From IMG/VR virus record IMGVR_UViG_3300005530_000015, positions 1 to 42,246 of that record: DNA of 42,246 nt, one strand, 5' to 3'. Positions 9,274 to 32,885 of the stretch are shown in pieces. How positions within the stretch are numbered: the stretch's first letter is position 1; each line of letters opens with the position of its first letter. The notes beneath the pieces were generated by a model, which did no database searches, was not told the DNA's origin, and saw only the letters and a list, made by a program, of their open reading frames with translations. A program made the translations under genes and the position numbers. The stretch comes from a virus.

Positions 9274-9285
9274 GTTGTGTGCGGT

Positions 9286-9358
9286 TCCCCTGTAGCTTAA
9301 TTGGGAGAGCGCGCCGGCGGATGCTGGCGAGGTGCAGGTTCGATGCCTGCCGGGGGCA
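9286..9358 (+). tRNA. tRNA-like element, atypical anticodon arm
   Basis: A cloverleaf can be drawn. Acceptor TCCCCTG pairs with CGGGGGC, with only the first pair mismatched. U8-A9 is followed by D stem GCTT/GAGC with loop AATTGGGA, and T stem GCAGG/CCTGC with loop TTCGATG. The anticodon stem CGCCG/TGGCG (9312-9316 with 9325-9329) encloses an 8-base loop GCGGATGC that lacks U33, and the variable loop has 4 bases. No CCA is encoded. The D and T arms are canonical, so it derives from a tRNA, but decoding looks impaired. It may be a decayed tRNA or a tRNA mimic. Confidence 0.5.
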
Positions 9359-9572
9359 TCCCTGATTGACCACGTACGAGGGACTAAATCGAACGCTGGT
9401 GACAGCCGGGAGAGACCGGCATTCTTAATCTACGAAAGGAGAGAGCCTCCATGAAGTAGACAGCGATATTTAGGAGTGAGGAGAGCTGGCCTCAAGCCGG
9501 CCCTTCCTCCCGGTTCCTCAAGGGGGATCGAGAGGAGGGAATAGCCCTCCATTTCAAAGGCGGAGAGCCAAT
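9359..9572 (+). promoter_or_regulatory. Structured non-coding leader (214 bases)
   Basis: No gene. It contains a minimal ATG-AAG-TAG frame with GGAGAG before it, a hairpin GGAGGG-AATAG-CCCTCC (9534-9550) and the 17-base motif GGGGATCGAGAGGAGGG (9523-9539). That motif recurs with one change at 9888-9904. It precedes the coiled-coil gene at 9573. Confidence 0.45.
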
Positions 9573-10071: not shown

Positions 10072-11229
10072 ATGAACATGTCCACACAACAGATGACCAG
10101 GACGGGTCAGAGTCAGGGCAGCGCACTCGCCAACAAAGCGGCAAAGCCTTCTCTCGAACAGCTCTTCGCAGCGCGTGGCGCGGAACTCGCAGAAGTTGCC
10201 GCACAGGGAATATCTGTTCAGCGCCTCTACAGAACCATGATGCTCTGCGTGCAGAAGACGCCGGCAATCGCGGCATGTACCGCCGAAAGCCTATATCGAT
10301 GCATGATGGATGCCGCGGAGGTCGGGCTGGAGCCTGGCGGCGCCCTTGGCCTCGCGTACCTCATCCCCTACAACGACACAAAGACGGGGGAGAAGCGATG
10401 CGAGTATCAGATCGGCTACCGGGGCTATATCGAATTGGCTCGTAGGTCCGGTGTCGTCTCGCACGTCCATCCGGTCGCTGTCTACAAAGACGATGTGTTT
10501 GAGTACGAAATGGGCCTCAATCCGATCCTGAAACACAAGCCTGGTCTCGGTCTTCGGCAGGCAAAAGATTTAACCCATGTCTACGCTATCGCTCATTTCA
10601 AGGACGGTCCCGCGCAGTTTGACGTGATGACGCGGGGGGAGATTGAAGCGATTAAGGCGCGGAGTAAGACAGCAGGTTCCGGTCCCTGGGTCACGGACTA
10701 CGCAGAGATGGCGAAGAAGACGGTCTTGCGGCGCATCTGCAAGATCCTTCCCCGATCCATCGCTGTCAAGGAGAACATCTCCGTTGCGGCAGACGGGCGC
10801 GTGCATCGGATTGATCCCGTCGGTGTCAGTGTGCCGATTGAGGTGGCGTTTCAGCCCGACATGATCGACGATGAGTTCGAGCCCGCGCAGGCTTCGCCCG
10901 CTCCTGCTCGAAATGCCGCTCCGAAAGGACCGACCCCAGCGGAGATTAAAGCGGCGGAAGAGGCGCGGATCTGTGTCGCCCTTGCGGTTGAGGCCTCTCG
11001 GATCTGGAGCATGGACGGATATGATCTCACCCCTGAACTGGCGAGCAAGATCCTGGACAGCCCTGTCACCGACGTGGCGGCCGACTGGGAAGTGTGGAGT
11101 GTCCGCGACTTCGTGCGCATCCTCTGCTACGCGATGCACCAGGGCCGGATCATCCCTCTGACCGAAGACATTCCCGCGCCGGACGCCATCCTCACGGAAG
11201 CCCAGCATTTCGGCATCAAGGCTGAATAA
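10072..11229 (+). CDS. recT: RecT-family single-strand annealing protein
   Basis: 385 residues from ATG 10072 with AAAGGA 4 bases upstream; ATG 10078 is also possible. The RecT core is plain: SLYRCMMDAAEVGLEPG, LAYLIPYND, YQIGYRGYIELARRSG and WVTDYAEMAKKTVLRRICK. RecT anneals complementary single strands and promotes recombination or recircularisation of phage DNA. The ~115 residues after about 270 form an extra Ala/Pro-rich linker and helical tail beyond the usual RecT length. No RecE/lambda-exo gene lies next to it. The VRR-NUC protein at 16772 is the only nearby nuclease. Confidence 0.9.
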   Translation: MNMSTQQMTRTGQSQGSALANKAAKPSLEQLFAARGAELAEVAAQGISVQRLYRTMMLCVQKTPAIAACTAESLYRCMMDAAEVGLEPGGALGLAYLIPYNDTKTGEKRCEYQIGYRGYIELARRSGVVSHVHPVAVYKDDVFEYEMGLNPILKHKPGLGLRQAKDLTHVYAIAHFKDGPAQFDVMTRGEIEAIKARSKTAGSGPWVTDYAEMAKKTVLRRICKILPRSIAVKENISVAADGRVHRIDPVGVSVPIEVAFQPDMIDDEFEPAQASPAPARNAAPKGPTPAEIKAAEEARICVALAVEASRIWSMDGYDLTPELASKILDSPVTDVAADWEVWSVRDFVRILCYAMHQGRIIPLTEDIPAPDAILTEAQHFGIKAE

Positions 11230-11242
11230 CCCTCATCACTCT

Positions 11243-11268
11243 CGGGAGGGTTTGCAGCACGGCCCTCC
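11243..11268 (+). promoter_or_regulatory. Intergenic hairpin between recT and the next gene
   Basis: GGGAGGG and CCCTCCC pair perfectly (7 bp) around a 12-base loop, not followed by a T run. It is more likely an mRNA stability or processing element than a terminator. GGAGATCAATC then leads into the next start, as at 8166. Confidence 0.5.
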
Positions 11269-11294
11269 CTCTCACCTATGGAGATCAATCAAAA

Positions 11295-11588
11295 ATGAAA
11301 CTTGCAGATGTGCTTCGCGCCTGTCGTCAAGGCAGCGCTGAGCGCGAAGCCAACGAAGCCCTGGCAGATGCCGGGCGCGCCGTCCTGGACACTTCCAAGT
11401 CGGCCACAGTGACGATCACCCTGACCTTTATCCCAATGGGCGGTAACCGGATCAAGATTTCGGACAAGATCAGCACGAAGAAGCCGGAACTCACGAAAGA
11501 AGATACCCTGTTCTTCCTGACCGAAGACGGCCTCGTCACTCGCAAGGATCCGCGTCAGATGACGCTTGAGGAGCTGCAGACGCTATGA
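11295..11588 (+). CDS. Conserved small phage protein next to DUF2303 gene
   Basis: 97 residues with GGAG 11-12 bases upstream of the ATG. A helical start (DVLRACRQGSAEREANEALADA) is followed by strands (SATVTITLTFIPMGGNRIKI) and a C-terminal TEDGLVTRKDPRQMTLEEL. Proteins with this layout are often found beside DUF2303/YfdQ genes in phages, but the function is unknown to me. It is coupled to the next gene by ATGA. Confidence 0.6.
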   Translation: MKLADVLRACRQGSAEREANEALADAGRAVLDTSKSATVTITLTFIPMGGNRIKISDKISTKKPELTKEDTLFFLTEDGLVTRKDPRQMTLEELQTL

Positions 11589-12400
11589 ACAAAGGACAAG
11601 AAGGCAAGACAGAATACGATGCCGCGTTTGAGGCTGGAGTTGCCGCAGGTAAGCCCAACACCGACATCTTTGCGCCGTTCTCCATCGTTCCCACCGGCTG
11701 CCATGTCGAGCCTCTTGAGCGATATATGGAGCGTCCGGTTCGTCGGCGTGCGGATGCTGTCTTCTCCACTGTCGAGAGTTTTACTCGCTATTTCAAGGAG
11801 TTCGCCAACGCGAATAGTCAGATCTTTGCGGATCCTTCCGGGCAGATCATTCGGGCGATCCTCGACTACCACAATGCTATCCCGGACCGTCCGTCGTGGT
11901 GTACCGATAAGGCAAGCCTACGATTCTCTCTTTCGCTTCAATGGCAAACCTGGAAGGCAAACCACAACCGCGCGCTCTCACAGGTCCATTTCGCCGAATT
12001 CCTCGAAGACAACTCCGTGGACATCGTAGAACCCGACGGCGCCGCTGTGCTGGAATGCGCGATGAACCTGGAGGCGAAGAAGACCGTTCGGTTCAAATCG
12101 GCGGTCAACCTGGACAACGGCGCCGCACAGTTCACGTTCGAAGAGGCCGTCGAGGGCAAGGGCAAGGGACTGCTGACAGTGCCGACCCGCTTCACCCTGG
12201 CGATCCCGATCTTTGAGGGCGGCGAGCCTGTCCAGATCCCGGCGCGTCTCCGCTACCGGATCAAAGATGACGTCCTGACCTTCACCTACCTGATGGACCG
12301 GCCGGAACGCCTATTGAAGTCGGCGTTCGACACGGTTCTTGAGCAGATCGAAGAGGCGACCTCCGTCAAGCCTTTCCTCGGATCTGTCTCCACGTCCTGA
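11585..12400 (+). CDS. DUF2303 (YfdQ-like) protein
   Basis: 271 residues. It matches the DUF2303/YfdQ pattern as I know it: an opening region ending in the Arg-rich RRRADAVFSTVESFTRYFKE, then ADPSGQIIRAILDYH, WQTWKANHNRALSQVHFAEF and a C-terminal beta-rich domain with FTYLMDRPERLLKSAFD. This family is common in temperate phages near RecT or other recombination genes. Biochemical function is not established. It directly follows RecT and its small neighbour here. Confidence 0.75.
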   Translation: MNKGQEGKTEYDAAFEAGVAAGKPNTDIFAPFSIVPTGCHVEPLERYMERPVRRRADAVFSTVESFTRYFKEFANANSQIFADPSGQIIRAILDYHNAIPDRPSWCTDKASLRFSLSLQWQTWKANHNRALSQVHFAEFLEDNSVDIVEPDGAAVLECAMNLEAKKTVRFKSAVNLDNGAAQFTFEEAVEGKGKGLLTVPTRFTLAIPIFEGGEPVQIPARLRYRIKDDVLTFTYLMDRPERLLKSAFDTVLEQIEEATSVKPFLGSVSTS

Positions 12401-12487: not shown

Positions 12488-15103
12488 ATGCCAGACATTC
12501 GGGACACATCAACCTATACAGATTTCTTGCGAGCCAAGGCGGTGATTGCGCCGGCGCGCGGACTGTCCTGCGATCCAAAAGATATCCATCCAATCCTTTT
12601 TCCGCATCAGCGCGATATCGCGTGCTGGGCTGTTCAGAAGGGCAGGGCGGCGATCTTCGCGGCGTTCGGCCTGGGCAAGACACTGATCCAGTGCGAGGTG
12701 CAGCGCCAACTGTCCGCGCAGGCCGGCGGCCGTCATCTGATCGTCGCGCCTCTCGGGGTCCGGCAGGAGTTCCGACGCGATGCTCAACTGCTCGGGATGG
12801 AATACAAGTTCGTCCGGCGGACCGAAGAGGTCGTCGGTGGTGGCTTCTATCTTACAAACTACGAGAGCGTGCGAGATCACAAACTCGACATGTCCCCCTT
12901 CACCTCGATCAGCCTGGACGAAGCGAGCTGTCTCCGCTCTTATGGAAGTGACACCTACCAGGAGTTTATGACGCTCTGTGCAGGCATCCCGTACCGCTTT
13001 GTGGCGACTGCCACACCTTCGCCGAACCGCTATAAAGAGTTGCTGCACTACGCGGCGTTCTTGGGCATCATGGACAGCGGGCAGGGGTTAACGAGATTTT
13101 TCCAGAGGGACAGCACGAAGGCCAACAATTTGACCTTGTACCCTCATATGGAAGAGGAATTTTTCGCATTCTTGCACTCGTGGGCGATCTTTCTTCAGCG
13201 GCCGTCCGACCTGGGATACAGCGATGAGGGCTATAACCTGCCCGAACTCAAGGTCCACTACCACGAGATCCCGACACCGAAACTGGGAGGAGATTTCGAG
13301 CGCGATGGTCAGGGGCAGTTGCTGCAGGATGCGGCACTCGGATTGCCGCAGGCGGCGCGCGAGAAGAAGTTGAGCATTGACGGGCGCGTCGCTGAAATGC
13401 TGGAGATCATAAAGGAAGATCAGTATTGCCGCATATGCAACGGTGTCGGCGATAGGTCCGATGGATCGCGATGCTATACCTGCGATGGGGGCGGGATTTC
13501 CGATGATCCTTCCATCTGGATTCTTTGGCATGACCTTGAAGCGGAGCGACACGCTATCCAAGGCGCCCTCCCAGACGCGTGTTCGGTTTACGGAACGCTT
13601 GACCTCGAAGAGCGAGAGCGGCGCATCATTGCCTTTTCAAATGGTGAAGAGCGCTTCCTCTCCACAAAGCCGGAGATCTCAGGATCCGGCTGTAACTTCC
13701 AACGTCATTGCCACAAAGCCATTTTCCTCGGGATCGGCTACCAGTTCAATGATTTCATCCAATCGGTCCACCGCATCCAGCGTTTCGGCCAGAAGTGTCC
13801 CGTCGAGATCCATCTGATTTACACGGAAACAGAGCGCGAAGTACTGAAAACGCTGCAGCGCAAGTGGGCAGAGCATGACGCCTTGACCGCGCGGATGGCG
13901 ATCCTGATCCGGCAACACGGTCTTAGCTCGACCGGCCTGGAGCAGTCGCTCGGGCGGAAGATCGGCATCAACCGCCATCTCGTCTGTGGCGAGCGCTACG
14001 AGGTCGCACACAACGACTGCGTGGAAGAGACGCGTCTGATGACCGATGCTTCGGTGCAGATGATCCTGACCTCAATACCGTTCGGCAACCACTACGAGTA
14101 CAGCGAGAGCTTCAACGACTTCGGCCACAACAGCGACAACACGGCGTTCTTCCGGCAGATGGACTACCTCTCCCCGGAACTCCTGCGCGTGCTGGAACCG
14201 GGCCGGATCTTCGCCTGCCATGTGAAGGACAGGATCCAATTCGGCAACGTCACGGGGATGGGCAGACCGACGGTAGAGCCGTTCCACGCAGAGTGCATTG
14301 CCCACTATCGCCGACATGGTTTTGCGTACCTCGGCATGATTACGGTGGTGACCGACGTGGTTCGGGAAAATAACCAGACCTACCGGCTGGGCTATTCGGA
14401 GATGTGCAAGGACGGTTCAAAAATGGGCGTAGGATCTCCAGAATACGTTTTGCTGTTCTGCCGGCTCCCCTCCGACACCTCGAAAGGCTATGCCGATCGG
14501 CCAGTGACCAAAAGCAAGGAAGAGTACAGCCTGGCCAGATGGCAGGTCGATGCCGCGGCGTTCTGGCGCAGCTCTGGTGACCGTTTCCTGACGGCAGAGG
14601 AGTTGCGTGGACTTCCGACCGGCGCGATGGTCAAGGCGTTCACGGCGCGGACCCTGGAAACCATCTACGACCATGAGGCGCATGTCAAGATCGGTGATGA
14701 GTTGGGCGATGCGCTCCCTCGAACGTTCTCCGCGATCTCGCCGGGCAGCGCGGATCCGGATGTCTGGCACGACATCAATCGCATGCTGACGCTGAATTCC
14801 GAACAGACGCGGAAGAATTTGGTCAACCATATTTGCCCTCTTCAAATCGATATCGTCCGCCGGCTGATTGATCGGTACAGCAATACCGGTGATGTCATTT
14901 TCGATCCATTCGCGGGGCTGGGCACGGTTCCGGCAACGGCCGTCCGGATGGGGCGGCGCGGCAAGGGCAGTGAGTTGAATGCGGAGTATTTCAAGGACAG
15001 CCTCCGCTACCTGGAGGCGGCGGAGATCGAGGCGAAGGCGCCCACCTTATTTGACGATCTGTTCGGCGAGACGGAAGCGGAAGCGGGCGAGGTGGTGGCA
15101 TGA
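12488..15103 (+). CDS. SF2/SNF2-type helicase fused to a beta-class DNA methyltransferase
   Basis: 871 residues. Helicase half: Walker A GLGKT (61-65), motif II DEAS (144-147), motif III TATPSPN (174-180) and motif VI HRIQRFGQ (428-435). Between the lobes sits an insert with two CxxC knuckles (C314/C317, C329/C332). Methyltransferase half: motif IV TSIPFGNHYEYS (528-539) precedes motif I DPFAGLGT (806-813), the beta-class order. SIPF replaces the usual PPY/PPF but, as I recall, is normal in this phage subfamily. It probably methylates an exocyclic amino group (N6-A or N4-C), perhaps coupled to translocation. It heads a run of modification- and replication-like genes. Confidence 0.85.
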   Translation: MPDIRDTSTYTDFLRAKAVIAPARGLSCDPKDIHPILFPHQRDIACWAVQKGRAAIFAAFGLGKTLIQCEVQRQLSAQAGGRHLIVAPLGVRQEFRRDAQLLGMEYKFVRRTEEVVGGGFYLTNYESVRDHKLDMSPFTSISLDEASCLRSYGSDTYQEFMTLCAGIPYRFVATATPSPNRYKELLHYAAFLGIMDSGQGLTRFFQRDSTKANNLTLYPHMEEEFFAFLHSWAIFLQRPSDLGYSDEGYNLPELKVHYHEIPTPKLGGDFERDGQGQLLQDAALGLPQAAREKKLSIDGRVAEMLEIIKEDQYCRICNGVGDRSDGSRCYTCDGGGISDDPSIWILWHDLEAERHAIQGALPDACSVYGTLDLEERERRIIAFSNGEERFLSTKPEISGSGCNFQRHCHKAIFLGIGYQFNDFIQSVHRIQRFGQKCPVEIHLIYTETEREVLKTLQRKWAEHDALTARMAILIRQHGLSSTGLEQSLGRKIGINRHLVCGERYEVAHNDCVEETRLMTDASVQMILTSIPFGNHYEYSESFNDFGHNSDNTAFFRQMDYLSPELLRVLEPGRIFACHVKDRIQFGNVTGMGRPTVEPFHAECIAHYRRHGFAYLGMITVVTDVVRENNQTYRLGYSEMCKDGSKMGVGSPEYVLLFCRLPSDTSKGYADRPVTKSKEEYSLARWQVDAAAFWRSSGDRFLTAEELRGLPTGAMVKAFTARTLETIYDHEAHVKIGDELGDALPRTFSAISPGSADPDVWHDINRMLTLNSEQTRKNLVNHICPLQIDIVRRLIDRYSNTGDVIFDPFAGLGTVPATAVRMGRRGKGSELNAEYFKDSLRYLEAAEIEAKAPTLFDDLFGETEAEAGEVVA

Positions 15104-15558
15104 AAGTCCTAACACTCACACAACCTTGGGCTTCCCTCGTCGCCAATGGATCGAAGAAGATCGAAACTCGATCATGGCGCACCAACTATCGCGGTCCGAT
15201 TGCCATTCACGCTGCGAAGGGTTTTCCGAAATGGGCGCAGGATGAATGCGCGCTTCCCGCTTTTCGTGATGCTATATGGCCGTTGACAGTCTCCATGTTG
15301 CCGACAGGCGTCATTCTCTGCACAACCACCCTGATAGACTGCAAGGCAATGGGAAACGAAGACGCCGACCCACACTTCGACGATGATACCCTGTTTGACA
15401 TCGGCTGGGGCTTAACTCCTTCAGAAAGGCGTTTCGGCAACTATGAAGACGGACGTTTCGCCTGGATACTCTCTGATATAAATGTGCTTGCAGAGCCGAT
15501 CTCGGCGAAGGGCGCGCTTGGACTGTGGGAATTCCCAATATCGGAGGTGGCGGCATGA
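15100..15558 (+). CDS. ASCH-domain protein
   Basis: 152 residues overlapping the methyltransferase stop by 4 bases. The start MKVLTLTQPWASLVANGSKK, then IETRSW, then RGPIAIHAAKG, is the standard ASCH opening. It continues with GVILCTTTLIDC and ends in a strand with WILSDINVL. ASCH is a small PUA-like beta barrel that binds nucleic acid; some members are N4-acetylcytidine amidohydrolases. Placement between a DNA methyltransferase and a PP-loop protein suggests a role in nucleic-acid modification, but this is context only. Confidence 0.8.
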   Translation: MKVLTLTQPWASLVANGSKKIETRSWRTNYRGPIAIHAAKGFPKWAQDECALPAFRDAIWPLTVSMLPTGVILCTTTLIDCKAMGNEDADPHFDDDTLFDIGWGLTPSERRFGNYEDGRFAWILSDINVLAEPISAKGALGLWEFPISEVAA

Positions 15559-16775
15559 TCCGACGAGATCAGATTTCCATGCTGACCGATGAGCCGCTCT
15601 CCCTCCGACAGGCGATGGAGTTGACGGCCGACAGCATCAACGCGTACGGTCCCCGGTTTCGCCATTGGGCCGTCGCTTACTCCGGAGGTAAGGACAGCAG
15701 TGCGATGGCCACCGTACTCGCTCACATCATCGATCTCGGGTTGATCCGTCGGCCGGAGAGCCTTACCTACCTCTACGCCGACACCCGGATGGAGCTTCCC
15801 CCACTCCAGGCCGGCGCCATGAACCTCCTGGCGGAGATGCGCGACCGTGGTTTCAAAACCGAAGTCGTTCTCCCTCCAATGGAGGACCGCTTCATGGTCT
15901 ACATGCTGGGGAAGGGCGTTCCTCCTCCCAAAAACCGCTTTCGGTGGTGTACCGGGCAACTGAAGGTCGAGCCGATGGAGCGCGCACTCGTGCAACTCCG
16001 CGACCTGGCCCAAGAGAAGATCCTGATGATGACCGGCGTCCGCGTCGGCGAGAGCGCCGCGAGGGATGCGCGCATTGCCCTCTCATGCGGCAAGGATGGG
16101 GCGGAATGCGGGCAGGGATGGTTCCAAGAGACGATACCGGCATCAATCGCCGACACTCTCGCACCGGTTCTGCACTGGCGCGTCTGCCACATATGGGACT
16201 GGCTTGCCGGATCGGAAGGCAATCCGTTCAAAACCGGATCCATCGCGGATGTCTACGGGATGGACAACGAGGGCAGCAGGCAGGAGATCGGAGCGCGCAC
16301 CGGATGTGTCGGATGCAACCTGGCCTCAAAGGACGTGGCGCTCGACCGCGTAATTGCGCGAGAGAAATGGGCGTACCTCGCACCGCTCAAAGGGCTTAAA
16401 CCGATCTACGCCAAGTTGAAAGAGCCTCACAATCGTCTTCGAAAGTTCATGGAGCGGAACGAAGATGATGAACTCTCCAGCAATCCGTTCCGCATGGGAC
16501 CGTTGACGATGGCGGCGCGAGAATGGGCATTGTCTGAGATCCTGAAGATCCAAGACGAGGTAAACGCCGGAGCAGTCCGGCAAGGCCAGCCGGAATACTG
16601 GCTGATCGACGAGGAGGAGTTGGCTGTCATCCGCCAAATGATCGCCGATAATACATGGCCGCAGCGCTGGGACGGGACAGAGATCACCGGAGACGCCCTG
16701 ATCCCAGTGGAAGGCACTGATGACCTGATCGAGATCACGCGGCAGGGCGGCAGGCAGGCGGTGATGTTCTCATGA
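15555..16775 (+). CDS. PAPS-reductase/DndC-like PP-loop protein
   Basis: 406 residues from ATG 15555, with GGAGG 7 bases upstream and ATGA overlap. The PP-loop SGGKDSS (43-49) binds and splits ATP. RWCTGQLK (C132), GVRVGES (161-167), the Cys pair C178/C185 and GCVGCNLASKD (C251/C254) match the DndC/PAPS-reductase group, where cysteines hold a metal or Fe-S site. DndC acts in DNA phosphorothioation; other members reduce PAPS. No DndA, B, D or E homologue is present. A phage-specific modification or a sulfur/nucleotide-activation step is possible. Confidence 0.8.
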   Translation: MIRRDQISMLTDEPLSLRQAMELTADSINAYGPRFRHWAVAYSGGKDSSAMATVLAHIIDLGLIRRPESLTYLYADTRMELPPLQAGAMNLLAEMRDRGFKTEVVLPPMEDRFMVYMLGKGVPPPKNRFRWCTGQLKVEPMERALVQLRDLAQEKILMMTGVRVGESAARDARIALSCGKDGAECGQGWFQETIPASIADTLAPVLHWRVCHIWDWLAGSEGNPFKTGSIADVYGMDNEGSRQEIGARTGCVGCNLASKDVALDRVIAREKWAYLAPLKGLKPIYAKLKEPHNRLRKFMERNEDDELSSNPFRMGPLTMAAREWALSEILKIQDEVNAGAVRQGQPEYWLIDEEELAVIRQMIADNTWPQRWDGTEITGDALIPVEGTDDLIEITRQGGRQAVMFS

Positions 16776-17275
16776 CCCAGACCACCACCAAAACCTGCCC
16801 GACTTGCGGGAACGATACCCTTCGACCTGGCATCTGCGAGGGTCGGAAGGTTATCGCCTGTTGTTGCGGCTTTATGGCGCCGGTCCTGATCTCTGATGCC
16901 GCAACCTCGGCCCTCAAGCTCCCTGGCCTGGACCGGGGCAAGCAGAGCCGCCAGATCGACCAACTCGAAACCGATCGGCAGCGCTACATCGTCGCGGCTC
17001 TCCAGCGGGAAGGCTGCACCGTCATGGAAATCGGGAAGTTCAATGCGCACCTCTCCGGCACGACCGAAGGCTGTCCGGATGTGTTCTTCACGAAACCCGC
17101 ATGGTCGATGCTCTGGCAGCCCCTGGAGATCAAGCGGCGCAAGGGACGGGCAAGGATCGAGCAGCAGCGACTGATCGACATCGGGGTCAGTGTCCGGGTC
17201 GAAACCGCAGGCGAGGCGCTCGCTATCATGCGTCAGGTTGACGAACGAATGAAAACAATCTTGAGGAGTGCCTGA
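16772..17275 (+). CDS. VRR-NUC-type nuclease with zinc ribbon
   Basis: 167 residues. An N-terminal CPTCGN...ACCCGF ribbon (about 9-33) is followed by a linker and helix. The nuclease core has GCPDVFF near 110, then PLEIKRRKGR near 124 and a following Gln (RIEQQRL). This PD-(D/E)xK arrangement with GRxxxEQ is that of VRR-NUC proteins. These act on branched or single/double-strand DNA junctions. It may resolve replication or recombination intermediates, or act with RecT in place of a dedicated exonuclease. Confidence 0.75.
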   Translation: MTQTTTKTCPTCGNDTLRPGICEGRKVIACCCGFMAPVLISDAATSALKLPGLDRGKQSRQIDQLETDRQRYIVAALQREGCTVMEIGKFNAHLSGTTEGCPDVFFTKPAWSMLWQPLEIKRRKGRARIEQQRLIDIGVSVRVETAGEALAIMRQVDERMKTILRSA

Positions 17276-18315
17276 TGGCGCGTATCCGCACAATCAAACC
17301 GGAGTTCTGGTCAGACGCGACAATCTCCGAACTGTCGATCTTTACCACCCTGTTCTATATCGGGTTGTGGAACTTCGCCGATGATGCCGGGAGAGGCCGG
17401 GCCAGGTCGAAGGAGCTGAACGGCCTGCTCTTCGGCGGTCGGGACAACATCGACGAAAGCCAGATCGAGGCGGCGCTCCAGGAGCTGTCCGACTGTGGCC
17501 GGATCGTCCTCTACGTGGTCGACGGGATACGACTGTTTCAGATCCTGAAGTGGGCACAGCATCAGAAAATCGACAAGCCGACAGGCAGCCGTTTCCCCGC
17601 GCCAGAAGGCTTCCACGAGGCAAAAGTAAAGCCTACGGGAGACCTTCCAGACACTTCGACGAATGTTCGTCGAGAACTCCCCGAAGCCTCCACGACGCCT
17701 AGCGGTACGGAAGGCGGAATCTGGAAGGCGGAAGGCGGAAGCGGGAATTTGGAAATGGGAAGGCGGAAGGCGGAAGGCGGAGCAGGGGAAGAGGGACCGG
17801 GAGAAACCACCGCGACGACACCGAGCGATCCCGAGGAGGCTTCCGCCCCGCCCGCCTCCGCCTTTTTGGAGCAAGCTCCTGATCCGCCCGCCTCAATGCA
17901 TTCGAAGCCAGAGCAACCTCTTGCCGAACGGGTCATCACGGTCAGCCTTGCCCCGGAGAAGTGGGAGGACCTGCTCAAAACTCGCGGCACTGGACCGGGC
18001 AAGGAGTTTTGGCGGCGGCACGAGATCTGGGACGGCCTGGAGGTGCTCTCCGAACGCAAGGAGCCTCCCCGAGATGTGGCAGCCGTCCTGCACACGTCGA
18101 TCCTGCCAGAGATTAGGGCCGGAACGAAGAAACCTGCCCGGTTGACGATCAATGCGCCTCCGCCGGCGCCGGTCGTGAGCGATGCAGAACGAGAGCGACT
18201 TATCGCGGAAAGCCCTGGCAGATCGCAGTATCTCCGGGAGAAAGCCGCGCAGTTTGAAGCCCAGCGGGCAGAAGAGGCCAGGAGAGCCAATGCAGAAGCA
18301 ATCAGTGCGCAGTGA
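17275..18315 (+). CDS. Phage replication protein with winged-helix N-terminus
   Basis: 346 residues. The N-terminal ~110 residues (MARIRTIKPEFWSD, LFYIGLWNFADDAGRGR, IVLYVVDGIRLFQILKWAQH, HQKIDKPTGSR) match the N-terminal domain common in phage replication/DnaD-like and O-like proteins that bind origin DNA. A long disordered linker carries a GGCGGAA simple repeat (residues about 145-172). The C-terminus holds a small helical domain (about 215-285) and an Ala/Glu-rich tail. It probably initiates phage replication by binding an origin and loading host helicase. No helicase loader was recognised next to it. Confidence 0.7.
   Translation: MARIRTIKPEFWSDATISELSIFTTLFYIGLWNFADDAGRGRARSKELNGLLFGGRDNIDESQIEAALQELSDCGRIVLYVVDGIRLFQILKWAQHQKIDKPTGSRFPAPEGFHEAKVKPTGDLPDTSTNVRRELPEASTTPSGTEGGIWKAEGGSGNLEMGRRKAEGGAGEEGPGETTATTPSDPEEASAPPASAFLEQAPDPPASMHSKPEQPLAERVITVSLAPEKWEDLLKTRGTGPGKEFWRRHEIWDGLEVLSERKEPPRDVAAVLHTSILPEIRAGTKKPARLTINAPPPAPVVSDAERERLIAESPGRSQYLREKAAQFEAQRAEEARRANAEAISAQ
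17709..17789 (+). repeat. GGCGGAA simple repeat inside the replication gene
   Basis: Irregular tandem units of GGAAGGCGGAA lie in the linker of the replication protein and encode Lys/Ala/Glu/Gly-rich residues. The repeat differs in texture from the flanking code and looks like a host-style dispersed repeat that entered or expanded in a tolerant linker. Confidence 0.65.
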
Positions 18316-18943: not shown

Positions 18944-19212
18944 AGCGCGGGATAGGAGTGCTCGCTTTTGGAGATCCGTCCTGCAAGATCATGCTCGTGC
19001 AGTGCCTCTGCGGGATGAGGTTTTACCCGACGGAGCAATCTGACTTTGAAACGTTCAACGCTCATATTGAGCAATGCCTTGAACAGGCGAAAGGGAACTC
19101 GAATGGAGACGAGAGAACCGAAAGAAAGGCCGATTTTGTTCAGCGGGCCGAACTCCGATCCGGATCACTTCTGTATCCACGCAGCGACCAACGTCAACGG
19201 CGAGCGCGTTGA
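18940..19212 (+). CDS. Small zinc-finger-like protein
   Basis: 90 residues, overlapping the previous stop by 4 bases. The first 50 residues contain CLCGMRF...HIEQC, a C-x-C...H-x3-C pattern that suggests a small zinc knuckle. The last ~36 residues overlap the next gene in another frame and read like its shadow (Arg- and Ser-rich). The functional part is probably the N-terminal half. Function unknown. Confidence 0.5.
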   Translation: MKRGIGVLAFGDPSCKIMLVQCLCGMRFYPTEQSDFETFNAHIEQCLEQAKGNSNGDERTERKADFVQRAELRSGSLLYPRSDQRQRRAR

Positions 19213-20275
19213 CAAGTGGATACCCTGTCCCTACGGCAAAAAGGGAGATCGACTGTGGGTACGGGAGACATGGTACGACAACCTGATCCGGGACGAGGGA
19301 GATTATCGCCTTGTTGACGAGCACGGTTCTGCGCTTGTGGTCTATCGTGCCGACGGTGAGTTCTACGATCAGTTTGAGGAGGTCGAAGGCGATCCGAAGT
19401 GGCGACCGTCGATCTTCATGCCGCGATGGGCAAGCCGGATTCTGCTGGAAGTCGTCTCTGTGCGTGTGGAACGGTTGCAGGAGATCACCCCCGCCGATGC
19501 GATGGCCGAAGGATGTCCGCATCCTCCTGACGGATACTGGACCGAACAGGATGCAGTTTCGTGGTACGGAAATCTTTGGGACATCATCAACGGGCGAGGT
19601 GCCTGGTGCTCGAATCCCTGGGTCTGGGTGATCGAGTTCAAGCGGGGAGAGTTACTGATGGGCGGTGAAACCAGACTGCCACGCGAGCAGGTTCTGCCGA
19701 TCGCACTCTCGCTCTACCGCGCACTGGAGCCTGCCTGCGACAAGATCTGCATAGCCGGCAGTCTGCGCCGTGAGGAACCGACTGTCGGTGATATCGAGAT
19801 CGTAGCGGTGCCTAAACATCTGCTGCATCTCAATCTGCTGGATGAGTTGGAGCCGGAAGCGGAGCCTTCCCAACTCCTGACCATCCTGCGCGGACTGATC
19901 TGCGACGGTGTTCTCGTCTGGCCAGAGAAGAACAAAGCGAACGGTCCCAGTTTAAAGCGTTTGACGGTCGTGGAATTGGGCATTCCGATCGAGATCTACC
20001 TCTGTGATGAATACGAGTACGGTTACATCACGATGATCCGCACAGGACCTGCCGATTTCGCGGAAGCGATGGTGACCGAATGGACCTATGGCGGACTGAA
20101 GATGCCGACACTCGACTGCAAAGGTGGTGCGAAGCGGTTGGTCAATGGCAAGTGGCAGAAGCTGGACTTGCCGAACGAGAAGGCAGTGTTTGACGCATGG
20201 GGATTGCCGGTTCTGCATCCAAGAGAGCGCGATGCGGCAGGCGTTGAGAAACTAAGGGGGATGGTGAAGCGATGA
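19103..20275 (+). CDS. Fusion of ASCH-like domain and Pol-beta-type nucleotidyltransferase
   Basis: 390 residues from ATG 19103 (AAGGGA 7 bases upstream). Residues ~1-180 resemble a phage ASCH-like protein: KERPILFSGP, then CPYGKKGDRLWVRETW, RPSIFMPRWASRI and VWVIEFKR. A usual segment after the first motif seems replaced. From residue 186 (ATG 19658) begins a family X polymerase-like palm: AGSLRREEPTVGDIEIVAVP with the DxE pair, then IPIEIYLCDE and FAEAMVTEWTYGG. The two parts are normally separate genes. Here they join in frame at a spot that still carries GGGGAG and ATG 8 bases later. Confidence 0.75.
   Translation: METREPKERPILFSGPNSDPDHFCIHAATNVNGERVDKWIPCPYGKKGDRLWVRETWYDNLIRDEGDYRLVDEHGSALVVYRADGEFYDQFEEVEGDPKWRPSIFMPRWASRILLEVVSVRVERLQEITPADAMAEGCPHPPDGYWTEQDAVSWYGNLWDIINGRGAWCSNPWVWVIEFKRGELLMGGETRLPREQVLPIALSLYRALEPACDKICIAGSLRREEPTVGDIEIVAVPKHLLHLNLLDELEPEAEPSQLLTILRGLICDGVLVWPEKNKANGPSLKRLTVVELGIPIEIYLCDEYEYGYITMIRTGPADFAEAMVTEWTYGGLKMPTLDCKGGAKRLVNGKWQKLDLPNEKAVFDAWGLPVLHPRERDAAGVEKLRGMVKR
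19644..19660 (+). promoter_or_regulatory. Internal ribosome site and start within the fusion gene
   Basis: GGGGAG (19644-19649), 8 bases, then ATG (19658-19660) in frame with the fusion. The ATG is part of TGATG, whose TGA is out of frame here. This is a typical stop-start junction made silent, so the nucleotidyltransferase may also be made alone. Confidence 0.6.
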
Positions 20276-30962: not shown

Positions 30963-32885
30963 ATGAAAACCCTTCGTATTGTTGCCCCATTCCACAACGT
31001 TTCCGGCTATGCGAAAGCCGCACGTGGACTGCTTGCCGCGGCTCTCCTTGCTGGCTATACCGTTGAAGCCGTTGAGAGCGAGACCACTGACTTTGTGACC
31101 GTGCCGATCGACGGATCTCCCGTCAAGACGCGCGGTCCTCGATTTCCGAACAAGCCCATTCCCGACTGCCAGCGCGCCGAACTAGAAGCCGCCCTGCGAA
31201 CGAAGGTTGACGATAATGCGCCGACCATCCTGATGGGCAATCCCAGCATGATGGCGGACTATCCGGAGTACTGTTCCGGCCCCAGGGTCGGCTACACGAT
31301 GCTGGAGAGCGACACGCTGCAGCCCCAATGGGCGCAGGCCTGCCGGAACGTCGATCTGATGCTCGCGCCGTCGAGGTGGTGCGTCGATACCATTCAGCGC
31401 GCTGTCCCCGATGTGCCGGTCAAACTGCTGCCAATCTGTGTCGATGAGCGCCTGTGGTCTCCCGAGGGACCGAAGCGTGAGATGCCGAAGGATACGCCTC
31501 CGTTCCTGTCCCTGTCGATCTTCTCGACATGCGAGCGCAAGGGATGGCGCAAGACGATCCAGGCGTTCGCGGAGGAGTTTCGCGGGGAGAATGTTGGACT
31601 CGTGCTGAAGCCGACGCGTGCGGCAGAGGTCGAAGAGTTGGCCGAGTGGGTTCGGTCGATGGGTGCGTGGATCTATATCGTGAAAGGGGAACTAACCGAT
31701 GAGAGTATGGCTGAGCTTTATCGCGCTTGTGATGTGTATTGCAGCCCTTCTGCGGAGGGGTTCGGTGTTCCACTCGCGGAGGCTGCCCTCTGTGGTCTTC
31801 CCTCAATCGCACTGGCCGCCGGGGGAGCTTCGGATATTGTCTCGAACGGCAACGGCTATCCTGTCCCGGTGGAATGGGAACCGTGCGTCGGACAGCTACC
31901 GCAGATATATCCATCTTCGCACAAATGGCCGACCTGTACCGTTGACGACCTAAAGGCGGCGATGCGGCGGGCGTTTAAGAACGACATGAACGGACATGTT
32001 CAGCGGGGCGTGAACGCAACGTCGGACGCTATACAGGAATTCAGCCGGGCGGCAATCGCTGTCCGGCTGGCAGAATTGAGCATGGAAGACCTATGGCCGA
32101 AGCCTCTCCCGGAAGCGCGGAGTCGCAAGAAAATCCCGCCGTTCGTCGCAGTCATCACAACCCATAACAACCGGGAGAGCACGAACCGGACCGTGCAGTC
32201 CCTGCTCTGCTCCGTCTCACCTCCCCGCATGATCGTCATTGCCGACGACGGTAGCGACGATGATACGCAAGAATGGGCCGATGCCATGGGCCTTTTCTTT
32301 GTGAAGTGCAACACCGGGGGAAACGTCAGCACGAACCGGCAGAAGGCCGTCGATGCACTGAAACGACAGTTCACCTTCCCGGGCGATCCGGCGATCTGCT
32401 TCTTCGATAACGATGTTGAGATCCTGCCAGGATTCTGGCCGAAGATGTCGGAGATCCTGCACACGCACTCCAGGATCGGCATCCTCGCACCTCGCAAGGT
32501 GTACGGCAACGATACGCAGGCGGCATCCTCCCTCCTCTCTGTGTCGGTCGCAGAGACCGTGCAGAACATCGGGAACCGTCTGTACTTCAACTGCGGGAGC
32601 TTCCCGCTTCACCTGGAGCGGCCCCTCGTCTACCCTGACTATGTGGAGAGCGCCTGCATGGTGGTGCGTCCGGAGGTGTGGCGATCCTGCGAGTGGGATG
32701 GGCAGTTCCCGATCTTCTACGAGGATGTAGACTACTGTTTCCAGGCGCGGGCGGCAGGCTGGGAGGTCTGCGCGACCAATGCCGCTACCGTCATTCACCA
32801 CGCGCACACGACGTCCAATACGCGCGCCGAGCAGTCGGATCTGAACCGGCGCAAATTCATGATGAAATGGAAGGAACGGATATGA
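30963..32885 (+). CDS. Two-domain glycosyltransferase (GT4 + GT2) in the tail operon
   Basis: 640 residues. The first ~370 form a GT-B/GT4 enzyme: a Gly-rich start (APFHNVSGYAKAARGLLAAA), KLLPICVDERLW, FSTCERKGWRKTIQAF and the E-x7-E motif EGFGVPLAE near 263. From about 390 comes a GT-A/GT2 domain: VAVITTHNN, IVIADDGSDDDT, a metal-binding FFDNDVE, and FPIFYEDVDYCFQARAAGW near the end. Both act on nucleotide sugars. Encoded between the tail tube and the chaperones, it probably glycosylates a tail or capsid protein. It ends with a 4-base overlap with the chaperone gene, so it is integral to the operon. Confidence 0.85.
   Translation: MKTLRIVAPFHNVSGYAKAARGLLAAALLAGYTVEAVESETTDFVTVPIDGSPVKTRGPRFPNKPIPDCQRAELEAALRTKVDDNAPTILMGNPSMMADYPEYCSGPRVGYTMLESDTLQPQWAQACRNVDLMLAPSRWCVDTIQRAVPDVPVKLLPICVDERLWSPEGPKREMPKDTPPFLSLSIFSTCERKGWRKTIQAFAEEFRGENVGLVLKPTRAAEVEELAEWVRSMGAWIYIVKGELTDESMAELYRACDVYCSPSAEGFGVPLAEAALCGLPSIALAAGGASDIVSNGNGYPVPVEWEPCVGQLPQIYPSSHKWPTCTVDDLKAAMRRAFKNDMNGHVQRGVNATSDAIQEFSRAAIAVRLAELSMEDLWPKPLPEARSRKKIPPFVAVITTHNNRESTNRTVQSLLCSVSPPRMIVIADDGSDDDTQEWADAMGLFFVKCNTGGNVSTNRQKAVDALKRQFTFPGDPAICFFDNDVEILPGFWPKMSEILHTHSRIGILAPRKVYGNDTQAASSLLSVSVAETVQNIGNRLYFNCGSFPLHLERPLVYPDYVESACMVVRPEVWRSCEWDGQFPIFYEDVDYCFQARAAGWEVCATNAATVIHHAHTTSNTRAEQSDLNRRKFMMKWKERI

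Follow-up and report, generated by a model that had tools for sequence, protein, structure and literature searches.

In DndC, three cysteines (Cys146, Cys280 and Cys283) have been assigned to a 4Fe-4S cluster, while two others (Cys262 and Cys273) are conserved in DndC and absent from adenosine phosphosulfate (APS) reductase (PMC12193691). BrxP of type 4 BREX and SspD of Ssp resemble phosphoadenosine phosphosulfate (PAPS) reductases and serve DNA phosphorothioation (PMC12839542), and a precedent for successive enzymes acting on phage DNA is provided by the C5-methyltransferase CmoX, after which CmoY, an AMP-forming ligase, acts (PMC12783734). Homologs of PAPS reductase are on record in phages with their function left open (PMC11437467), and PADLOC has called DndC or SspD in prophages, in cases that need verification (PMC12429752). 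A phage gene that bears the label "PAPS reductase" is usually taken for a helper in sulfur metabolism. The present analysis concerns a DndC-like PP-loop gene in the viral record IMGVR_UViG_3300005530_000015, whose full 42,246 bp are referred to as the window. The gene is the third in a row of four (12488-17275), lying between those for a helicase-methyltransferase and an ASCH-domain protein on one side and a short VRR-NUC-like protein on the other. Its cysteine pattern, its methyltransferase neighbors across phages and the connection of its cyanobacterial relatives to dnd genes argue for a DNA-modifying branch among these so-called reductases.

The PP-loop protein is a full-length match to phrog_12882 (7.9e-137, residues 13-381) and also matches PF01507 (4.8e-7; 30.4 bits against a cut-off of 22.5), whereas its score against the DndC model TIGR03183, 121.3 bits, falls under the curated cut-off of 290.4. 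The first-pass annotation, made from the sequence alone, had credited it with DndC-type cysteines and a GVRxxES motif; the motif is present as GVRxGES, but counterparts exist for just three of the five DndC cysteines. The Salmonella DndC sequence contains exactly those five plus Cys82, and in cyanobacterial DndC the equivalents of Cys262 and Cys273 lie at 260 and 271. In the alignment, the phage family retains the three presumed 4Fe-4S cysteines as C132, C251 and C254 (DndC Cys146, Cys280 and Cys283, respectively), has neither of the DndC-specific pair, and displays three other conserved cysteines, C178, C185 and C211. As the peptide patterns used to fetch the loci include ECGQGW and RWCT, C132 and C185 are conserved in part by construction; the patterns do not cover C178, C211, C251 and C254. 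All six cysteines are retained in the isolate phages that tblastn brought up, the distant Thermus phage Tsatsa among them, and the catalytic motifs are strictly conserved in the family. In the tree, the phage-type proteins stand apart from DndC with full support, the branches of DndC and Tsatsa being long. In view of the sub-cut-off score, the missing pair, the other conserved cysteines and the separate clade, the protein is judged from its sequence not to be DndC, in line with the different chemistry that the first-pass annotation had allowed for. An AlphaFold2 model (mean predicted local distance difference test score, pLDDT, 82.9; the C178/C185 loop poorly modelled) retrieved APS reductase, CysD and LarE in a fold search, with an APS reductase as the closest solved fold; true DndC sequences had no solved relative there. 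The entry 9kpv ("enzyme", 2025) was a further match of the search. The CysH-type C-terminal catalytic cysteine (ECGxH) is absent, the last cysteine being residue 254 of 406 and the ECGQGW motif internal. No homolog of DndA, DndB, DndD or DndE was found in the window, where the first-pass annotation had already noted DndA, DndD and DndE as absent.

The genomic neighborhoods were surveyed in an IMG/VR sample of 74 PP-loop loci, 63 of them non-redundant with the window included. Within 6 kb of the PP-loop gene (62 loci), a C5-cytosine methyltransferase occurs in 29, a helicase-methylase in 18 and an ASCH protein in 3. For comparison, a C5-methyltransferase lies nearby in 19 of 80 helicase-methylase loci and in 1 of 16 RecT loci, the latter being too few to weigh as a background control. 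Immediate adjacency was also counted: the PP-loop gene adjoins a methyltransferase in 17 of 60 viral loci, where 4.9 would be expected if some other gene were drawn at random from these loci, and in 13 of 41 against 3.4 after thinning to 70% identity. None of 20,000 simulations reached the observed value, a 3.5-fold excess; the count uses a home-made gene caller and the profiles for C5, helicase-linked and D12 methyltransferases. The methyltransferases concerned are mutually unrelated (C5, helicase-linked N4/N6, D12, Dam and MT-A70) and may lie upstream or downstream. Among isolates, two follow the PP-loop gene in Rhizobium phage RHph_N28_2, a C5 and an adenine methyltransferase follow it in phage phiC725A, a C5 enzyme precedes it in phage Dobby and a methylase follows it in Microcystis phage Mae-JY29. 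The recurring unit is thus the PP-loop gene plus a methyltransferase of varying type rather than the four-gene row, and these neighbors support the earlier suggestion that the neighborhood points to DNA modification. Within a limited literature search, no paper was found that describes this pairing or the cyanobacterial one presented below.

Two further features of these loci may be recorded. DUF5131 (PF07505), which we take to be radical S-adenosylmethionine-like, lies near the PP-loop gene in 16 of 62 loci (L011, L036, L048, L054, L064 and others), as against 4 of 80 helicase-methylase loci, and is a possible further partner. Where the catalytic motif is usually PPC/PCQ, large phage C5-methyltransferases (L018:4319-5965, L008:2633-4585 and others) have SPEC or SPDC, and also SLEC; this Glu/Asp variant was considered as a signature of partnership with the PP-loop protein and rejected, as it occurs without a PP-loop gene too.

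The phage-type PP-loop protein is also found in hosts from many phyla, in a scan that took a single genome from each species and yielded 80 loci, 26 of them cyanobacterial. Amid phage sequences, the 26 cyanobacterial proteins group into a single clade (support of 95 in the SH-like approximate likelihood-ratio test, SH-aLRT), a chromosomal and domesticated branch of the phage type. In 17 of these 26 loci the divergent upstream neighbor is a TIGR04096 protein (826 bits in L181); DndE is found in 17 and DndD in 14, and at least one of the three is present in 22. One locus (L183) also contains a true DndC (677 bits), and in another (L192) a cysteine desulfurase lies directly upstream of the PP-loop gene. 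The phage-type protein thus stands beside DndC and not in its place. TIGR04096 was found in all 18 cyanobacterial PP-loop genomes searched, as against 75 of 244 cyanobacteria in a sample of the phylum; within that sample, four genomes have a phage-type PP-loop protein (>500 bits) and all four have TIGR04096, the remaining PP-loop matches (<160 bits) looking like DndC itself. In two of these four (G065 and G114) DndE is not detectable, and yet both retain TIGR04096 divergently adjacent to the PP-loop gene, suggesting that this pair is tighter than the link to dnd. Outside the cyanobacteria, a gammaproteobacterial Endozoicomonas with the PP-loop gene (L225, genome G054) also has TIGR04096, on another contig.

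The best reading of these patterns, albeit at less than even confidence, is that the PP-loop protein thiolates phage DNA and so camouflages it, drawing on host-supplied sulfur and acting with or beside a modular methyltransferase; the chemistry is a proposal. A DndC relative of the phage type, the protein would act as a sulfurtransferase: it would use ATP to activate (adenylate) an oxygen on the DNA substrate, and sulfur originating from a host cysteine desulfurase and relayed through a 4Fe-4S cluster held by the three conserved cysteines would then replace that oxygen. The methyltransferase, which varies from phage to phage and is here the helicase-linked one, may give target recognition or a second mark, and the outcome would be phage DNA hidden from restriction. 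In that case phages would count sulfur in their DNA among their means of camouflage, and a minimal enzyme that thiolates without the large DndD/DndE machinery would be open to study; the PP-loop protein would also offer a concrete partner for the uncharacterized TIGR04096 protein of dnd islands. A bolder extension, which we consider rather unlikely as a whole, is that there is an undescribed two-enzyme hypermodification of phage DNA, wherein a methyltransferase of any class and a DndC-related sulfurtransferase without DndD/DndE generate a sulfur mark, and that the sulfurtransferase passed from phages to cyanobacteria, which set it beside their phosphorothioation islands with TIGR04096.

Several observations weigh against DNA thiolation. 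DndC requires DndD and DndE to act on DNA, and both are missing from the window. In 43 of 60 PP-loop loci there is no immediate methyltransferase neighbor of the three profiled types, none is annotated near the PP-loop gene of Tsatsa, and methyltransferases are in any case abundant in the early regions of phages. The cyanobacterial counts derive from one clade and are inflated by relatedness; moreover, TIGR04096, itself no more than a putative methyltransferase, has no methyltransferase domain match in Pfam, its activity being the curator's label.

The same evidence bears on the alternatives. That the adjacency is without functional meaning, reflecting only how early phage genes are shuffled as modules, is unlikely but deserves serious consideration, being consistent with the commonness of C5-methyltransferases near helicase-methylase genes that lack a PP-loop neighbor (the 19 of 80 loci above) and with the majority of PP-loop loci that have no adjoining methyltransferase; it does not readily account for the excess over other genes of the very same loci, nor for a separate (putative) methyltransferase neighbor in cyanobacteria whose divergent orientation is conserved. 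A target in RNA, namely host or phage tRNA thiolated in the manner of TtcA/TtuA, has a slim chance: tRNA thiolation is generally known from PP-loop enzymes whose 4Fe-4S cluster is bound by three cysteines (discussed in PMC9239217), ASCH domains can bind modified RNA and the fold search returned LarE-like matches, but no tRNA-modification partner recurs next to the PP-loop gene, which has DNA methyltransferases and, in the cyanobacterial loci, dnd genes as its neighbors. The role implied by PHROGs and GenBank annotations, an auxiliary metabolic PAPS/APS reductase for sulfur assimilation, is improbable despite the above-cut-off PF01507 match and the APS reductase as closest solved fold, for the protein lacks the CysH-type C-terminal cysteine, scores far better as a relative of DndC, and has methyltransferase neighbors and cyanobacterial members in dnd islands. 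We give equally small credence to a function against host phosphorothioate systems, either as a DndC-like decoy blocking DndCDE or as an imitator of its mark. DndC is indeed the closest functional relative, and the cyanobacterial copies beside dnd genes could be immunity or regulatory genes; strictly conserved catalytic motifs are, however, not what a decoy would need, and the hosts span many phyla. As for chemistry, CmoX-type carboxymethylation is unsupported: CmoA, the carboxy-S-adenosylmethionine synthase, was above cut-off in none of 29 viral contigs with both a PP-loop and a C5-methyltransferase gene (a search that did not include the window), which makes it unlikely at PP-loop loci, and SP[DE]C stands in place of SPPC in most of the large C5-methyltransferases close to the PP-loop gene.

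The first-pass annotation had proposed a joint job for the four genes. The row itself was confirmed by a check of open reading frames and start codons, with 4-bp overlaps at all three junctions (the PP-loop gene starting at the ATG within an ATGA shared with the ASCH gene), and ASCH occurs near helicase-methylase in a few loci (L146-L152, L224). Nevertheless, a single functional modification/restriction cassette is largely refuted and now seems highly improbable. ASCH is present on only 7 and Pfam VRR_NUC on only 5 of 50 whole PP-loop contigs, the helicase-methylase is near the PP-loop gene in a minority of loci, the searches brought up no relative of the VRR-like protein, and no relative in everything fetched keeps all four together, the outcome that the first-pass annotation had itself named as refuting. 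Four more junctions of the window also have a 4-bp overlap (11585, 28708, 29817 and 36638), and the row runs on into the replication initiation gene, so that overlap is the ordinary style of this phage and is weak evidence of joint function. In the DNA-thiolation account, the ASCH and VRR-NUC-like proteins would be neighbors from the replication/recombination module and not fixed partners.

The helicase-methyltransferase and the ASCH protein (Table 1), like the PP-loop protein, are members of known families by their profile matches. The helicase-methyltransferase matches PF01555 through its methyltransferase domain (7.7e-15) and helicase-methylase phrog_16 over the chain (5e-115). It combines a helicase and a beta-class methyltransferase in one chain, with motif IV (S-I-P-F, 529-532) before motif I (DPFAGLG, ~806), and its zinc-type insert is present as CRIC...CYTC, both as first described. 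Across 91 homologs, motif IV is mostly S-I-P-F or S-V-P-F rather than the textbook SPP[FYW], and the insert is absent from nearly all, being peculiar to the window phage; its sequence, CRICNGVG...CYTCDGGG, is similar to one half of the zinc domain of DnaJ (DnaJ_CXXCXGXG, E 0.045). The ASCH assignment holds, at 29.4 bits to PF04266 against a gathering cut-off of 21.2. The proposed PD-(D/E)xK VRR-NUC nuclease is plausible but not established: a G-PD...ExK...EQQ signature is visible and hhalign aligns it with phage VRR-NUC proteins, but neither Pfam (VRR-NUC PF08774 included, even at E<=10) nor any other database gave a match, and its single-sequence AlphaFold2 model (pLDDT 39.5) is too poor to use. 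No relatives were seen in the phage collection, an IMG/VR pattern scan, 30 PP-loop contigs and 12 genomes, a weak negative for which no positive control exists. It is probably a recombination/replication nuclease, a role in which its VRR-NUC-like core fits its position beside the replication gene.

Table 1. Coordinates of the four-gene row and its flanking genes in the window.
Feature	Position	Strand	Details
RecT annealing protein, phrog_204 protein, DUF2303 protein	10072..12400	+	upstream of row; profile matches
Helicase-methyltransferase, SNF2/SF2-type helicase with beta-class amino-DNA-methyltransferase	12488..15103	+	871 residues; phrog_16; motifs FGLGKT, LDEAS, HRIQRFGQ, SIPF, DPFAGLG
CxxC...CxxC insert in helicase, residues 314-332	13427..13483	+	compared across 91 homologs
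ASCH-domain protein	15100..15558	+	152 residues; PF04266 1.3e-6, phrog_3193 1.1e-40; 4-bp overlap on both sides
DndC-related PP-loop ATP-pyrophosphatase, phage type	15555..16775	+	406 residues; phrog_12882; SGGKDS, RWCT..K, GVRxGES, ECGQGW, HWRxC, RTGCxxC
Small protein, N-terminal CxxC and C-terminal VRR-NUC-like nuclease signature	16772..17275	+	167 residues; hhalign probability 65%, E 6e-5
Replication initiation protein	17275..18315	+	phrog_2149; 1-bp overlap with VRR-like gene

The predicted genes of the window phage, among them those for integrase, RecT, replication initiation, large terminase, portal, major head protein, tape measure and Dit, point to a temperate siphophage, and its annotated flanks place the row in the recombination/replication module. 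Elsewhere, a single open reading frame (19046-20275) joins an N-terminal phrog_874 part, which by eye belongs to an ASCH-like phage family of the KTQTRR type, to weak C-terminal matches to the palm and thumb of DNA polymerase beta (E 0.0065 and 0.0082), and may unite a modified-base reader and an X-family nucleotidyltransferase in one protein. Between the head and tail genes, a 640-residue protein (30963-32885) with GT1-type and GT2-type glycosyltransferase domains could glycosylate virion proteins or modified DNA. An ARAGORN tRNA call at 9285-9361, with an anticodon of two bases only and thus undetermined, is probably degenerate or false.

Set against the described systems, the helicase-methyltransferase shares its whole architecture with the phrog_16 helicase/methylases (e.g., of mycobacteriophages and Arthrobacter phages; DNA matches in 162 phages), from which it differs in the additional CxxC...CxxC insert. 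The PP-loop protein is a direct member of phrog_12882, whose name, phosphoadenosine phosphosulfate reductase, implies a part in sulfur assimilation that the evidence does not support. To BrxP and SspD it is related within the same PP-loop superfamily, the similarity being weak (45 and 43 bits). CmoX/CmoY offers a parallel in the pairing of a phage DNA methyltransferase with an ATP-using, AMP-forming enzyme, although CmoY is an asparagine-synthetase-type ligase. DndC differs in possessing Cys262 and Cys273 in place of which the window protein has C178, C185 and C211, with no DndD or DndE encoded in the window; at the same time, the two have in common SGGKDS, RWCT..K, G(V/S)R..ES and the three 4Fe-4S cysteines.

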